A stretch of DNA of 31,939 bases from Chrysochromulina tobinii. Taxonomy: Eukaryota; Haptophyta; Prymnesiales; Chrysochromulinaceae. Both the position numbers and the translations under genes were made by a program. The notes beneath the pieces were generated by a model. It saw only the letters and a list, made by a program, of their open reading frames with translations, was not told the DNA's origin and made no database searches. This document shows, piece by piece, positions 3,776 to 31,939 of this stretch. The stretch spans positions 1-31,939 of the forward strand of contig JWZX01002301.1 in the NCBI GenBank assembly GCA_001275005.1, written 5' to 3'. Numbering within the stretch: position 1 is the stretch's first letter; each line of letters begins with the position of its first letter.

Positions 3776-5515
3776 TCACCAGCCACCGATGAGCTCGCTG
3801 AGCATGTCGCCGCTTCGCTCGTCGGTGCCACCGTGCCATGCGGTCCGACTGGTCCGCGCACCGCCATCGCCGCCGGTCTGATCGGCGGCGTGTTGCAGCT
3901 GCCGTGGCGGCGCCGTGGGCGCCGCCATGCTCGTGACGGCAGAAAGTTCGGAGTCTGGAAGTACCGGTGCTAAGGATGCCTCGCCCCGTATCGGCTGAGC
4001 CCCGACGGCGGCGGGCTTGGCGAAGACGAAGATGGGCTCGCAGTGTGTAGTGAGCGTCTGGGCCGTCGCGCGCGTCTTGGTGGGCTTGAGCATGCGCAAG
4101 GTGTCGCGTGGCTCGAAGCCGGCGCGGAGTGCCTGCCGACGGACGGCCTGCTCGAGGTCCATGCCGCCCTCGAGCAGCATCCTGTTGTTGGACACGTTGA
4201 GCAGGAGATGCCCGCCCGGACGCAACGCGCCGAACGCGTGGCGCACCAACGGCCCGAGAAACTGCGCTTCCCACCAACTGTGTGTTGGGTACTTGACGTG
4301 TGCCTGACTCGGCTCGCCGTCGGCATAGAGCTCCAGGTTAAAGTACGGCGGGGATGTGAAGACACAATCGACGCTTCCCGCGGGTAGAGGCGTGTCCTCA
4401 GCGCCGCGTCGGAGCAGCTCGACCTTCATGCTTCGCGTAGCCGCGTGCGCCCGGAACAGCACCTCGAGCTCCCGCAACCCTGCGTACGTGGCACTCGATG
4501 GCTCGCATGCAATGTACGTCCCAACATTACGCGCGAGCGCTGCCCCGAGCAGCCGCCCGCCCCAGCCGGCGCATGGGTCGTACACGACCGCATTGGACGC
4601 TGGCGCGAAGCGACGATAGATGGCGCTCGCGATCAGTGGCTGGAAGTTGAGCACCCATGAGCCCGACAAGATCGTGATCTCGCGCCGCAGCACGCTAGCA
4701 TACGACGGGCGGTACGTCGCACGGCCGTCGAGAGCCTCGCTTCCTGAGGCGGCGCCCGAGCCCTCTAGCGGACTTGCCGGTTCCGCGAAGCGCTCGAGTA
4801 CCGAGCGAACGGACCGAGCGCGGTTGGCGAGCCTCGACTCGAACCAGTCTCGCGCTGATGGGCGCGGGGCCACCTCCTGCCAGCCGGCCGCGCACGTTCT
4901 GGCCTTGCTCGTCGCAAAGATGTGTGGCTGGAAGGAGAGGCAGAGCAAATTGCCGGGAGCGCTCCAGTGGTCCCTTTGCTGCAGCCGCGTCGGACTCATC
5001 CAGGTGTCACTGGCGGCACTCGCAGCATGAAGCGCTGCGACAAGCTGGCGCGCGCGCCACGCTGGCGTGGTTGGCACGAACGGAAAGCCACACGCGCTTA
5101 CAACCTCTGTGTATCGGCGAAGCTCCGTAAGCACGCTCTGCTCATCGGGCCCAACAGGCTCATTGACCAGCTGCCAGCCGCGGCTTCGTGCCTCAACATC
5201 CCATGCGGCGGCCGCATCCGCGCTTGTCGCAAAGCAGCCGAGATGAACGGCCTCGGAGGCCGACTGGCCACCAAAGATCGCGTGGTAGCGGATGCCATGA
5301 GTGGCCAACTGTGGCGGTGCTGCGCCGACCGATAGTACCTGGAAAACACCCACGGGTCGACCGAATATTTCAGCTTCGCCCCAGCCGCTCCGCAGCATGC
5401 GCGTGCATCCACAGCGCGGCGGTGCGTGCAGAGGTTGATGACTGCACGCGTCGTCGTCTATGTCCTCGCAGTCAGCGCCCACCGCATCGGCGAGCCGCTT
5501 CCGCGGGGCGGCCAT
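3776..5515 (-). CDS. AP2-like domain fused to a gamma-order N6-adenine/N4-cytosine DNA methyltransferase
   Basis: A 579-residue protein starting at the first ATG of the frame (5513-5515). Residues about 74-118 resemble an AP2/ERF-type DNA-binding repeat: GIRYHAIF, then HLGCFATSADAAAAWDVEAR, matching the usual (L)G-F-T-x-x-x-A-A-x-A-Y/W-D-x-A pattern. The C-terminal half is an S-adenosylmethionine-dependent DNA amino-methyltransferase. FQPLIASAIYRRFA precedes motif I (DPCAGWGGRLLGA, from about 313), and motif IV is TSPPYFNLELY (from about 387). The order I then IV fits gamma-type adenine or N4-cytosine enzymes, and this style (DPCAGWGGR, TSPPYF) is frequent in phage and bacterial methylases. 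It would methylate an exocyclic amino group in DNA; the recognition site is unknown. The stop overlaps a perfect splice-donor string (GTGAGT at 3773-3778 on the minus strand), so the real C-terminus may include a further exon. Confidence 0.85.
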   Translation of the reverse strand: MAAPRKRLADAVGADCEDIDDDACSHQPLHAPPRCGCTRMLRSGWGEAEIFGRPVGVFQVLSVGAAPPQLATHGIRYHAIFGGQSASEAVHLGCFATSADAAAAWDVEARSRGWQLVNEPVGPDEQSVLTELRRYTEVVSACGFPFVPTTPAWRARQLVAALHAASAASDTWMSPTRLQQRDHWSAPGNLLCLSFQPHIFATSKARTCAAGWQEVAPRPSARDWFESRLANRARSVRSVLERFAEPASPLEGSGAASGSEALDGRATYRPSYASVLRREITILSGSWVLNFQPLIASAIYRRFAPASNAVVYDPCAGWGGRLLGAALARNVGTYIACEPSSATYAGLRELEVLFRAHAATRSMKVELLRRGAEDTPLPAGSVDCVFTSPPYFNLELYADGEPSQAHVKYPTHSWWEAQFLGPLVRHAFGALRPGGHLLLNVSNNRMLLEGGMDLEQAVRRQALRAGFEPRDTLRMLKPTKTRATAQTLTTHCEPIFVFAKPAAVGAQPIRGEASLAPVLPDSELSAVTSMAAPTAPPRQLQHAADQTGGDGGARTSRTAWHGGTDERSGDMLSELIGGW

Positions 5516-5619
5516 CGTCGGGAAAGTTTGAAAAACGGACAAGTCAAGTCAAGTGAAGAAAATTGGCGCGCGAGCGCTATATTGGGCGCGGAAACACACC
5601 CGCTCCATGAAGACAGTGT

Positions 5620-27533: not shown

Positions 27534-28859
27534 CTAAACGTTACCCGAGTATCGAGTCCCCACCGCGTCAATCAGCACGGGCACGCCTGCAGCGTGTGGG
27601 TACGGCGCTTTTGCCCCAATTTCTTTGTCTGAAGAAGTTGGCCCACGGAGCTCGAACTTGGGCGTGCAGGTGCCCGATGCACTATCCGACGGTGCCGTCA
27701 CGAAGCGCACCGCACGGACTGCGTGATCAAACGCCTCACGGTACGTGCGGCCATGGACACAGACGGTCTCAAAGAAGACAGTCGAAAAGAGCTTCGCAGC
27801 ACCATCGAGCGTCTCAGTCCTCCAGCATACGACTGTCGGAACACCAGCCTCGCGCGCCGCTCGGCCGAGGGCCTCAGTGTTGCAGCCGTTGAGGAAGCAT
27901 AGATCGAGGGTGCCTTCGCTGTCCTTGCCCTGGGAACCGAGGAGTGTACTAAGATGCTTCGGCTCAACCACCTCGAGTGCGCCGCCGTCCGGGCGTGCAA
28001 AGCCGAGTGTGAGGTCTCCCATGTATCTCGCATCTCCATGGCCAGAGAAGAGGAAGCGGCGCGGGCGGTGCTCGCACAGCTGCCCGTTCAATTCTTGTGC
28101 GGTGGCATTGTCCGACGTGATTTGGCATGTCCAAGCTTTACACTTGGCCTTGATGTCTTCCGCTTCCTTCAGCGCTTGCGGTAGTGGGCTGATCGAAGGG
28201 CTGCACACGAAAATGAGCAACTCGCAGCCCGGCGTGGGTGCGAAGCGCTGCCTTTTCTGAGGCGGCTCTGCAAGTAGGTCGCGTAATAAATGAGATGCTT
28301 GCAGGACTTGTTGATCAGTGTAGGGGTACGGCGAGGACGAGGAGGAAGAGGAGGAGGACGAGGATTGCAAGGAGGGAAGCGTTGGCTCGGGCTTACGCGA
28401 CACCTTGAATGGCGTGCGCCAGAGATCGGTTCCCTGCGGAATCGCCCGGATGATCAAAGTGCCATCAAATTGGTTGGCCTCGTAGTCTGGCGGCACCTCC
28501 ACATCGTGAGGCACGGACTTTATCTTTCGATTCCACCCCATACGCTGCGTGGCTGGCGTGACGGTGCAATTTGTGACGATCACTGTCACCTCGAGGTCCG
28601 TGACTGTCGCCTTGAGCTCATCCAACGAATGTTGGTAACGAGTGTCGGACATTTCTAAAGAATTCTTGAACGTTGCCATCATGCCCGTGATCATCGTCCA
28701 CACTGTCACCACGAAGCTCGTTGCACGAGCGTCAACAGCTGCTGGCCCCGTGATGGCGTATTGCACATCGTCAGACTCATCAGCTGGTTCACCACCTCCG
28801 CCACCTCCGCCACCTCCCCCGCCCCCACCACCTCCCCCGCCCCCCCCGCCCCCCGACAT
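27534..28859 (-). CDS. C-terminal CHAT (caspase-like) protease half of the CHAT-TIR locus
   Basis: The frame is open from 29054 but begins with TTG; its ATG nearest the folded part is at 28857-28859, just before a run of 21 glycines. Then come a mildly hydrophobic helix (SFVVTVWTMITGMMATF), a beta-rich stretch ending FDGTLIIRAIPQGTDLWRTP, a serine run and a basic PPQKRQR. A CHAT domain follows at nucleotides about 27690-28229: LLIFVCSPSISPLP, FLFSGHGDARYMGD with catalytic His, and LCFLNGCNTEALG with catalytic Cys. Then come the CHAT features VPTVVCWRTETLDGAAKLFS and YREAFDHAVRAV. CHAT domains are cysteine proteases of the caspase/gingipain clan (separase is a relative). Because this frame lacks a convincing start of its own and meets the upstream CHAT-TIR frame within a G-rich tract, it is probably the continuation of that protein, displaced by one base. 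Confidence 0.8.
   Translation of the reverse strand: MSGGGGGGGGGGGGGGGGGGGGGEPADESDDVQYAITGPAAVDARATSFVVTVWTMITGMMATFKNSLEMSDTRYQHSLDELKATVTDLEVTVIVTNCTVTPATQRMGWNRKIKSVPHDVEVPPDYEANQFDGTLIIRAIPQGTDLWRTPFKVSRKPEPTLPSLQSSSSSSSSSSSPYPYTDQQVLQASHLLRDLLAEPPQKRQRFAPTPGCELLIFVCSPSISPLPQALKEAEDIKAKCKAWTCQITSDNATAQELNGQLCEHRPRRFLFSGHGDARYMGDLTLGFARPDGGALEVVEPKHLSTLLGSQGKDSEGTLDLCFLNGCNTEALGRAAREAGVPTVVCWRTETLDGAAKLFSTVFFETVCVHGRTYREAFDHAVRAVRFVTAPSDSASGTCTPKFELRGPTSSDKEIGAKAPYPHAAGVPVLIDAVGTRYSGNV
28789..28859 (-). repeat. G-rich glycine-coding tract where two reading frames meet
   Basis: The minus strand is a GGN repeat with a run of eight G (plus-strand C at 28840-28847), flanked by runs of six and five. 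Read in one frame it ends the CHAT-TIR ORF with RGRWWGRG-type residues; in the next it encodes 21 glycines and continues into the second CHAT domain. Confidence 0.85.
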
Positions 28860-31647
28860 TTGCGCCACCTCCACTGCGCCCGCCACCTTCGTCACTTCCG
28901 CCACCTCCGCTGCCTCCATCGGCAGCCATGATCGCTGCTTTCTCCGCTCGGTACTCGCGCATGTTGCTGATCGCTTCTTTCTCCGCGGCATACGTCTTTC
29001 GAACGCAGTCTTCAATGTCCGAACGGCCGTCAAGGCGAGCGACGCAACCTCCAAGCTTGCAGCTCCTCACACCCTCCTGCAGTAACGTCTCATCGCGCTG
29101 CTTTGCGAGCTGGAACAGGACATGCGCCGCAACGGGGTGCACGAGCAAGACAAGCAGGACTGAGCTAAAGCGCTTGAAGACCACATTGATGCCCTCAACA
29201 CTGATGTTTGACGGCCACGCTTTAGTCTTGGTCAGCTGTTCAATGCTCTTCTCAATATCCTCCTCGACGGATGTGTCACTTTGACTGTCGCTCGACTCAG
29301 CAGCGTCACTGCTGTAGGAAGCTGTGCTGTGCTGCGGAAGCTGGGATTCGTCGACCTCGACACGGATGCGGCACCGTTTTGTTCCAATCGTCGCCTTCAT
29401 CTTGGAGGATAATCCGGGCTTTTCGATGCGGATCTTGCAAGGCCTGTTGCAGATCTCCGTATCTAACAGCCCTGCCAACACGCTCTTCAATCGGTCCTCG
29501 CGCGATTGGTCAAAAGAGTCGACGTCACCTTCGAGGCAAAGCGTGATCACCTCGCGTGGCGAAGACATCTGCAGAAACGTGAAATCTGCTATCAAGCGCT
29601 CGACTACAACCTTTCGAAGCTTGGCGTCGGAGGTGATGAGCTCCACCGACTGCTCGTCGCCGATACTTGCGAATTCGGGATCGGATGGCTTTCTCTGCAG
29701 GATGGCTCCGACGTTCACACCTTGCATGTGGCACAGCATGATTTTCTTCCGCAGGCTGATGGCATGACGAAGCTCCATGACACAATACTTGCTGTCAAAG
29801 TACTCGTCGCTTAGCACGAGCATGAACGTCTTGGAATGCTCCACCCCCTCCATCATGGCATGTGTGCCGCGGTCGTTCATGTTCACATCCAGCCACACCT
29901 TGTTGCCTGCCTGTTCGAGGTCCCTGGTGATGAGCGCCGCCGCATGGCCGCTTTCGCGCTGTACGTGAGACATGAAGAAGTCCCACGGGGCACCTTCGTT
30001 TCTCAGCCCCGGAGGAGCCGTGCTTGAGCTGCCTTGTGAGCTGCCTTGAACGGCATCGCTTGCTAGACTGCTTTCTGTCGGTTTGCGGAGCGCCATGTCG
30101 GTAACTCCGAAACTTCCGTTCACCAGGGCCTTGACGGTATCGGCGATCGTAGCGGCGCGGTGCTGCTTACACACGTTCGCCTCCATCCGCGCTTGCTCAA
30201 CGGCTACTGCTGCTTTCGTGTCAACCTCGTTCAGTCGCTCGACGCGTGCCTCCATGTCGATGCGGTCGTCCAGGGTCACCACGACGCCGCCGTGCTTGCA
30301 GCAGCGCACGCCTTGTGCAAGAAGCGGCGCGATGCGCAATTTCGCGAGTTGCATGAGGATGAGGCCGGCTGGCTCAGGCAAGGCAATTACGAGCATGATG
30401 GAGCCCTCTCCATGCCATAAGACCTCGATGTCGGTTTGCTCGAAGCTGAGCGGCCAGTAGTGAGAGCGCACGAGGCTTTTCACGCTATCTTCAATTTGCC
30501 TCGCCACTGAGTCGTCAGGGGTGCTGACGCTCGGCTCGTCGTCGCCCGAGGAGGTACTGACACTTGCGGAGTCTGAGCTGTATTGTGCCCAGCCCTGCTC
30601 GTCGACCTCGACGACCACTCGACAGCGGCTGGTACCAATCTGTGCGGCCAGTGTGCTCGAGGCGACACGTCGCCGCCGGATGCGTATGTTGCAGGTCTGC
30701 AACTCTGAGTCCAGCAGAGCCTTAAGTACCTCCTTGAGCTTATCCTCGCGAACGTTGTCAAAGGCTTTCAGATCCCCGTCGAGGCAGAGCGTGATCACCT
30801 CGCGTGGCGAAGAGGGCGACCGCGGCAAGGCAGGAGCCGTGCTTGAGCTGCCTTGGGAGCTGCCTTGAACGCCATCGCTTGCTAGACTGCCCTCTGCGTG
30901 AAGGAATGATTTGGTGACCGGTCGGTCATGTAGATGCCTCGGGATGCCAGCGGCAATGCGGCCTTTAACCTTGCTGCGAGTTTTCATCCGGCCTGCGTTC
31001 TCCTCGCCACGTTGAAAGACAAGATCAGCATCGTCGGGGTCTGCGAGCTCGTACTTCTGGACCCGAGCCTTGAGACCCGTGTCCAGTTCCCCGTCCTCAC
31101 ACTCCGTCGTGACTCTTGTGCAGGCGCGCTCGAAAGCTGCTGCTGCATCGATGCCATGCGTCGGCTGTCGCGATAGCACGTCTGCGAACGCCTGCCCAAA
31201 GAGCTTGGCTGCGTCGTCGTGGACTCTCGTTTTCCAGCACACCACGTCTTCAACGCTGGTGCCTTCCAGAAGTCGTCGTCCAAGGCGCTCGGTGCAGCAG
31301 CCCGTCAATACAATGAGTCGCAGTCCCGTATGCTTTCGGACCGTGTTCACGAGCGTGTCGATGCTGACCGCCTCCAAGCGGCCGTCGCTCTCGAAAGCGA
31401 GCACGGGCTCTCCTTGCAGCATCGCATCACCATGGGCAGGGCAGAACCAGATGCGCTTGTCTTTCAAGACCTCGTCGAGGCGGCCGACGCTGATCCGAAT
31501 GTGCTTCTCCGCTCGGTTGCCGAAGGCGGACCTAATGTGTTCTGCCTCGGCCTCAACATTAGGTAGATGAATGTGCGACGGAGTACCATCAGGATTCGTT
31601 TGCGCCTGAGACTCCGCTGTGATCAATACGTCAGCCATAGGAAGCAT
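28789..31647 (-). CDS. CHAT-module-TIR-module protein (caspase-like protease plus TIR NADase-type domain)
   Basis: From the first ATG (31645-31647) the frame gives 952 residues. Order: CHAT domain (about 6-210) with IWFCPAHGDAMLQGEP (His72) and LIVLTGCCTERLG (Cys117), then VVCWKTRVHDDAAKLFGQAF. Next is a Ser/Gly linker, then module A (about 282-509: REVITLCLDGDLKAFDNV, IGTSRCRVVVEVDE, GSIMLVIALPEPAGLIL, LLAQGVRCCKHGG). The linker then recurs, followed by a TIR domain (about 554-680: PWDFFMSHVQRESGHAAALI, KVWLDVNMNDRGTHAMMEGV, LVLSDEYFDSKYCVMELRHA). The TIR keeps the glutamate of Y-C-x-x-E-L (about 625), the catalytic residue of NAD-cleaving TIRs. Module B (about 697-909) repeats module A. The last 45 residues are Gly/Arg/Trp from reading a G-rich repeat in the wrong frame. 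The frame upstream of 31647 is open to a TAG near 31900 but has no ATG; a 5' exon is possible. Probably cytosolic; role inferred as immunity or cell death. Confidence 0.88.
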   Translation of the reverse strand: MLPMADVLITAESQAQTNPDGTPSHIHLPNVEAEAEHIRSAFGNRAEKHIRISVGRLDEVLKDKRIWFCPAHGDAMLQGEPVLAFESDGRLEAVSIDTLVNTVRKHTGLRLIVLTGCCTERLGRRLLEGTSVEDVVCWKTRVHDDAAKLFGQAFADVLSRQPTHGIDAAAAFERACTRVTTECEDGELDTGLKARVQKYELADPDDADLVFQRGEENAGRMKTRSKVKGRIAAGIPRHLHDRPVTKSFLHAEGSLASDGVQGSSQGSSSTAPALPRSPSSPREVITLCLDGDLKAFDNVREDKLKEVLKALLDSELQTCNIRIRRRRVASSTLAAQIGTSRCRVVVEVDEQGWAQYSSDSASVSTSSGDDEPSVSTPDDSVARQIEDSVKSLVRSHYWPLSFEQTDIEVLWHGEGSIMLVIALPEPAGLILMQLAKLRIAPLLAQGVRCCKHGGVVVTLDDRIDMEARVERLNEVDTKAAVAVEQARMEANVCKQHRAATIADTVKALVNGSFGVTDMALRKPTESSLASDAVQGSSQGSSSTAPPGLRNEGAPWDFFMSHVQRESGHAAALITRDLEQAGNKVWLDVNMNDRGTHAMMEGVEHSKTFMLVLSDEYFDSKYCVMELRHAISLRKKIMLCHMQGVNVGAILQRKPSDPEFASIGDEQSVELITSDAKLRKVVVERLIADFTFLQMSSPREVITLCLEGDVDSFDQSREDRLKSVLAGLLDTEICNRPCKIRIEKPGLSSKMKATIGTKRCRIRVEVDESQLPQHSTASYSSDAAESSDSQSDTSVEEDIEKSIEQLTKTKAWPSNISVEGINVVFKRFSSVLLVLLVHPVAAHVLFQLAKQRDETLLQEGVRSCKLGGCVARLDGRSDIEDCVRKTYAAEKEAISNMREYRAEKAAIMAADGGSGGGGSDEGGGRSGGGANVGGRGGRGRWWGRGRWRRWRRW

Positions 31648-31939
31648 TGCCCACCGTGATGTACTGCGTCGGCAGTACTCGCGCCGGCTCGCCTGTTGCT
31701 TTCTGTCGGGTTGCGGTCGACAAGTTTTGCCGAAGCGGCGCTTCACATTCACGCCGCGCTCCGCGCGCCGTACCAGGCGTTCACACAACACACACTCGGG
31801 TAGCTCACTGAGCTCTTCCTCACTAAGAGGGGATGACCTCCACACGGTTGGCACAACGGAACAGGTCCCGGGAGTGGGCGGCGGCGCCAAGCGCTGCTAC
31901 CCACATACCCCATTCGCCCGCTTCCGGCAACTCGTGGCA
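31648..31939. promoter_or_regulatory. Upstream region of the CHAT-TIR gene
   Basis: The frame of the CHAT-TIR protein stays open through about 31890, then meets a TAG. The extra residues would include PECVLCERLVRRAERGVNV, with two Cys in a C-x2-C spacing, so a coding 5' exon beginning after an AG cannot be excluded. No other gene is visible before the window edge. Confidence 0.4.

Follow-up and report, generated by a model that had tools for sequence, protein, structure and literature searches.

We analysed a stretch of 31,939 nucleotides from the haptophyte Chrysochromulina tobinii (GenBank assembly GCA_001275005.1, contig JWZX01002301.1, C1172 in our numbering), referred to here as the window, whose minus strand carries two CHAT protease domains, a TIR domain, two copies of a module that we call X and a further domain, Y. 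Along the coding strand they follow one another as CHAT1–X1–TIR–X2–Gly–Y–CHAT2 (Table 1), Gly being a glycine-rich tract. The parts are spread over two open reading frames (ORFs), ORF1 with 1035 open codons (31896–28789) and ORF2 with 510 (29066–27534), and these lengths are not due to chance, as 100 shuffles of the bases in the 4.6-kb stretch yielded frames of at most 291 amino acids. Besides the first ATG listed in Table 1, a second one at 31638 is an alternative start of ORF1, and it coincides with the start of the relative P0001. The preliminary description of this DNA had seen one minus-strand locus with the palindromic order CHAT-X-TIR-X-CHAT. All domains indeed lie on the minus strand, yet the palindrome breaks down, as Y precedes CHAT2 only, and the single protein is qualified by a frame change, by the extra Y and by a stand-alone Y–CHAT protein in Prymnesium parvum.

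The switch from ORF1 to ORF2 is one base out of phase and falls inside the glycine tract, which holds G runs of six (28854–28849) and eight bases (28847–28840). Slippage by a single base within a G run would bring the frames together, as would each of the 25 GT-AG pairs present in the part that was scanned. Furthermore, three of the five other X copies in the assembly (those of contigs C1442, C529 and C1370) lead without a frame change into glycine tracts, and such a tract also precedes Y in C741 and C2171. Hence, ORF1 and Y-CHAT2 likely form one product, as far as the reading frames tell.

Table 1. Features of the CHAT–TIR locus (window positions).
Feature	Positions	Strand	Basis or remark
ORF1	28789..31647	-	first ATG downstream of the repeat to stop; CHAT1-X1-TIR-X2-Gly, 952 codons
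ORF2	27534..29066	-	stop-to-stop frame; contains Gly-Y-CHAT2
CHAT1	30925..31638	-	paralog and family-profile matches, invariant dyad
Conserved linker before X1	30811..30930	-	common to four other X genes
X1, TRADD-N-like	30232..30810	-	turn Ser 30402-30400
Second linker copy, directly before TIR	30013..30077	-	61/65 bases identical to X1 linker
TIR	29587..29994	-	Pfam TIR_2, 8e-12; aligned with plant TIRs
X2, TRADD-N-like	28993..29562	-	turn Ser 29163-29161
Glycine-rich tract	28790..28930	-	site of the one-base frame change
Y	28374..28775	-	134 residues, helix and beta strands; recurs in C741, C2171, C1921 and P. parvum Y-CHAT
CHAT2	27558..28259	-	Pfam CHAT match, His/Cys dyad
Dispersed repeat	31749..31939	-	directly upstream of the gene, at contig end; 31 own-genome DNA matches, the window's included

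The domain content proposed at the outset, namely two CHATs with intact His/Cys dyads, a TIR and two copies of an unfamiliar module, was borne out. The profile search suggested there recovered TIR and CHAT2 in Pfam but not CHAT1, which had to be placed via paralogs. CHAT2 matches Pfam CHAT at E 3e-8 (33.9 bits, cut-off 24), with its dyad at His 28040–28038 and Cys 27884–27882. CHAT1 taken alone has no Pfam match and reaches only E 0.16 against the solved CHAT 8tl0. It matches, at E 3e-19, a paralog on C1782 that itself exceeds the Pfam CHAT cut-off; its His69 (31434–31432), Gly113 and Cys114 (31299–31297 for the dyad Cys) are invariant in an alignment of eight CHATs (8/8), and a profile built from all eight matches 8tl0 at 5.6e-14. 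By its sequence relatives, CHAT1 is thus a CHAT domain. The caspase-like fold of a CHAT peptidase is present, and protease function is predicted. CHAT1 is 87% identical (204/234) to the CHAT1 of P0001, and two relatives of Y-CHAT2, P0011 and P0012 (84-90% identity), keep the frame open. The same genome encodes NLR-like fusions of CHAT with an NB-ARC/NACHT-type nucleoside triphosphatase (NTPase) on C1782 (L012) and C920 (L010); in two more CHAT–NB-ARC loci, on C1629 (L011/L018) and C434 (L016), one part is weaker. Compared with solved chains, the tail of CHAT1 resembles ubiquitin (polyubiquitin at E 2e-6), with no single stretch passing by itself. Since other CHATs have tails that align with this part, we set the match aside as probable chance.

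The TIR domain scores 46.1 bits against TIR_2 (cut-off 28). Its Glu74 (29775-29773) is invariant in 5/5 copies and aligns, at weak E-values of 0.0015-0.1, with the Glu of the C-x-x-E-L motif in plant TIRs, a position that we take to be the catalytic Glu of TIR NADases, enzymes consuming nicotinamide adenine dinucleotide (NAD). PADLOC returned for both frames only weak, TIR-level matches (PDC-S66 at 4.5e-5, ThsB at about 1e-3), and Pfam found no NB-ARC or NACHT NTPase in the window protein. The proteins P0007 and P0008 are PARP–TIR fusions, with PARP above the cut-off and a TIR 81-83% identical to that of the window, such that two types of NAD-consuming domain sit on one chain. In two further loci, L006 (C852) and L008 (C534), a stretch before the TIR looks SAM-like by eye, reminiscent of SARM1; Pfam gave no hit to it.

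The two X copies are homologous, with 47% amino acid identity, and lie between other domains. The predicted structure of X shows the order beta-alpha-beta-beta-alpha-beta, with ferredoxin/RRM-like structural neighbours; its predicted local distance difference test (pLDDT) values are 75-89 in most core blocks and 68 at the end of helix 1. An insertion of ~85-90 residues, comprising a hairpin and an acidic, Ser-rich stretch, separates helix 1 from strand 2, and the beta2-beta3 turn reads SS or GS, its Ser being invariant in 11/11 copies. For comparison we used TRADD-N, a domain of conflict and apoptosis proteins. Its Pfam model PF20694, searched in 388 cyanobacterial genomes, matched 39 of them at E <=0.01, 32 over the cut-off, and 27 of 30 loci were used for a profile. 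Without the predicted insertion, X scored 22.8–30.7 against this profile over nine cut choices (at best prob 74%, P 2.7e-5), while 150 shuffled controls, each cut in these nine ways, peaked at 20.6 and all fell short of the best X score. Cut X scored 11.6–13.4 against 29 ACT domains, which share the superfold and are the sole fold control, and the fold-level background of ACT against TRADD-N was 18.9; CHAT, TIR and Y, cut likewise, gave 9.0–12.0. The alignment spans strand 1, helix 1, strand 2, the Ser turn and strand 3, with the Ser in register. Three features coincide, the RRM-like predicted fold, the Ser that never varies in the turn and, once the insertion is removed, a profile match specific to bacterial TRADD-N. 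We therefore read X as an adaptor resembling TRADD-N into which a lineage-specific segment has been inserted, and its membership in TRADD-N is probable.

Comparison with other X genes points to an exchange of modules. In the linker before X1, 98-100 of 120 bases are identical to those of the genes on C1442, C529, C1370 and C993, with a BLAST core of linker plus first X bases at 88-90%; the X bodies of these four genes share about 53% of bases with X1. P0001 has CHAT1 and linker as in the window, combined with a different X, which is identical to the C529 X at 180/190 positions and to X1 at 81/189. Modules have therefore been exchanged at the linker. In the C-terminal third of P0001, we noticed by eye that the sequence after X reads MQIFVKTLT, the start of ubiquitin, and then departs; possibly P0001 is a CHAT-X-ubiquitin gene with an intron. 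Other partners of X are trypsin (P0002, P0004), EF-hands (P0003), HEAT (P0006), SAP (C1370) and LRR/PX (P0009); in P0005, the same protein as that of C993, X stands with a DEAD helicase and a PARP, the latter at 24.5 bits and thus below its cut-off of 26.7. By eye, P0013 combines a CHAT2 (~81% identity, 59% of the query) with the domain that otherwise stands between X and PARP in P0005, which looks like another module swap.

These own-genome searches covered the 53-Mb assembly of 2253 contigs. The occurrences of X given here are a minimum, because a protein search with the P0009 X region retrieved P0009 alone and overlooked X relatives already known, and because the search for relatives scored 7991 candidates, those sharing most words. 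Bacterial contamination was rejected, as no X was found in prokaryote genome contigs. A viral origin was rejected too: searches of viral contigs, from which records near this genome may be missing and whose pattern scans were not exhaustive, turned up nothing related to X, Y or the TIR family. The neighbours of ORF1 and ORF2 in the window include aminotransferase, EF-hand and PhyH genes.

The ratio of nonsynonymous to synonymous substitution rates (dN/dS), determined for X and TIR copies, stays below 1 in every pair compared, 21 of X and 10 of TIR (31/31). It amounts to 0.31–0.65 among the five close X copies (10 pairs) and to 0.22–0.60 for TIR; where X1 or the C773 copy is part of an X pair, dS is saturated and the ratio little informative. 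These ratios reflect purifying selection on X and TIR, which is not strong for X.

Domain Y links the locus to other architectures. In C741 (L040) and C2171 (L041) it comes after both a stretch that by eye looks transmembrane-like and repeats of the beta-propeller type (SBBP in Pfam for C2171); a trypsin-like part follows Y in C2171 (by eye) and C1921 (L045; below the Pfam cut-off). Possibly, the Y proteins of C741, C2171 and C1921 represent a version of the system that acts as a surface receptor. The only named relative found, P0018 (AB1Y20_013664) of the haptophyte P. parvum, has Y followed by CHAT, with 29% identity over 81% of the query and a Y profile comparison at 96.6% and E 5e-10. Among the 388 cyanobacterial genomes a single one gave a Y match, weak at E 5.6e-5, directly before a strong TIR domain (protein L268 1027-2562, minus strand); this sequence match is suggestive only.

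The gene starts next to a dispersed repeat of ~190 bp, of whose 31 matches 24 have >=89% identity. By eye, we counted 15 matches within about 300 bases of a contig end, the extent of one contig not being seen; because so many copies sit there, the repeat probably breaks the assembly. The first ~50 residues of stop-to-stop ORF1 lie inside this repeat and were rejected as a protein domain. Elsewhere in the window, a frame of 590 amino acids (3779-5548, minus strand) has a sub-threshold match to N6/N4 DNA methyltransferase.

Altogether, we consider it somewhat more probable than not that the locus is a gene for a multi-effector signalling or cell-death protein, in which two CHATs and a TIR are combined with X bridges and a beta-rich Y. 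Most likely, it is one member of a repertoire that shuffles effectors and adaptors and serves immunity or cell death. Since conflict-type domains are combined and modules exchanged, we infer such a role as the best-supported one. The immunity or cell-death system envisaged in the preliminary description thus gains conflict-type effectors, a TRADD-N-like X and CHAT–NB-ARC, PARP–TIR and trypsin–X relatives on its side, and its role is to be read in this conditional sense. More tentatively, and with less than even confidence, we propose that haptophytes own a TRADD-N-type immune and cell-death network, in which a mobile X with its linker is joined to CHAT, TIR, PARP and trypsin. The window protein would be its most loaded member seen, with three enzymes on one chain whose NAD consumption and proteolysis would be released together.

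As to mechanism, the available passages of Kaur et al. describe a TRADD-N model in which effectors are held inactive and released on rearrangement, and our proposal is shaped after it. In the resting state, the effectors on either side would be kept inactive by the X bridges. The trigger might be a signal, or crowding by the X/Y modules that partner proteins of the family bring along, upon which the TIRs would oligomerise and consume NAD or make a nucleotide signal. The freed CHAT proteases could then cleave host targets, so that the cell is killed or arrested and infection stopped. Recombination in the conserved linkers, and probably also in the glycine tracts, would let members of the repertoire gain and lose effectors.

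Several observations weigh against this interpretation. For X, they are the middling confidence of the model (mean pLDDT 64, strand-2 block 56), the weak comparison of uncut X with the TRADD-N profile (prob 4%, score 20.7), the poor alignment of helix 2 and strand 4, a cut position picked with the structure model in hand, no match of Pfam TRADD-like_N (PF20694) in the own genome at E<=1, and two copies per protein where reported TRADD-N proteins usually have one; TRADD itself is not among the structural rows listed for X, which excludes nothing. Pfam also found no Death or STAND domain in the window protein, no single frame crosses the locus, given the one-base change between ORF1 and Y-CHAT2, and in P. 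parvum Y-CHAT stands as a separate protein of 550 amino acids. X could hence be an unrelated ferredoxin-like adaptor, in agreement with its lack of a Pfam hit, the weak uncut comparison and a Foldseek search of the X model without a match below E 0.03, ferredoxin-like folds being common; we regard this as somewhat unlikely, as cut X beats all shuffles and the ACT–TRADD-N background and carries its turn Ser in the register of TRADD-N.

The frame change and P0018, together with an ATG at 28859-28857 that opens the glycine tract of ORF2, would also suit two products, ORF1 (CHAT-X-TIR-X) and a separate Y-CHAT, whose two-ended CHAT arrangement would be an accident of adjacency. This is rather unlikely in our view, given the ease of joining the frames and the glycine contexts of X and Y elsewhere in the genome; moreover, overlapping frames would leave little room for a promoter. 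If, instead, the frame change were a real inactivating mutation, the gene would be decaying or recently shuffled and without present function, to which the fairly relaxed constraint on X (dN/dS up to 0.65), the fragmented assembly and the repeat at the gene start would conform. Yet 952 codons of ORF1 and the entire ORF2 are open, their motifs are intact and the frames of P0011 and P0012 are open as well, making decay the least credible account, an improbable one. Finally, the same effectors could serve a non-immune regulator, for example in stress, DNA damage or self-recognition signalling: the PARP, helicase, SAP and HEAT partners of X would also suit chromatin or repair, and TRADD-N is present in the animal coactivator NCOA6, according to the available part of PMC8195603. 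However, TIR, CHAT, PARP and trypsin combined, along with modules that are rapidly exchanged, are typical of conflict systems, and CHAT-NB-ARC proteins occur in the same genome, so that we judge a non-immune role to be distinctly unlikely.

Our multi-effector reading places the window protein close to, yet apart from, several known systems. With the TRADD-N conflict and apoptosis proteins, as portrayed in the available parts of Kaur et al. (2021, PMC8195603; 2020, PMC7159879), it shares the RRM-like adaptor fold, as predicted for X, the conserved Ser in the hairpin turn and the place of the adaptor between swapped domains (caspase, PARP and others); it differs in its haptophyte host, the two copies, the insertion and the CHAT/TIR flanks. 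Compared to SAVED-CHAT, TPR-CHAT (Craspase/Csx29) and separase-type peptidases, two CHATs here flank a TIR, and no SAVED, TPR or CRISPR part is seen. The TIR NADases (SARM1, plant TNL, CRISPR Cat1) likewise have a TIR with Glu at the C-x-x-E-L position, whereas the window protein shows no ARM, NB-ARC or LRR match and its NADase role is predicted. P. parvum P0018 resembles it in having Y before CHAT, but is separate, with no X or TIR seen, and the CHAT-NB-ARC proteins of the same genome share the CHAT effector but have an NTPase switch instead of X-TIR-X. No report of a TRADD-N conflict system in haptophytes was found in the literature searched, which was available mostly as listings or passages, and none of the passages available from PMC8195603, PMC10732462, PMC7159879, PMC12419801, PMC9503650 and PMC10907252 deals with a haptophyte TRADD-N; among these six papers, only PMC9503650 uses the word haptophyte, in connection with a viral TIR. 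The literature search returned no paper that joins CHAT domain, TIR domain and haptophyte, nor one that joins TIR domain, haptophyte and NLR. This kind of system is known from bacteria and animals, in the form of TRADD-N conflict proteins; new here are the probable identity of X and the evidence that modules have been exchanged.

Viruses kill marine algae in large numbers and, to our knowledge, the molecular switches of algal cell death are poorly known. The locus and its relatives provide concrete candidates for such switches. The available part of PMC9503650 reports that Chrysochromulina ericina virus, a giant virus of a haptophyte, encodes a TIR domain that is possibly host-derived; TIR signalling may therefore matter in the contest between virus and host. 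If our interpretation is true, TRADD-N-type adaptors extend beyond bacteria and animals, and a eukaryote builds its sets of effectors through module exchange at conserved linkers in the DNA. In summary, our analysis suggests that single-celled algae assemble mix-and-match immunity or self-destruction proteins.
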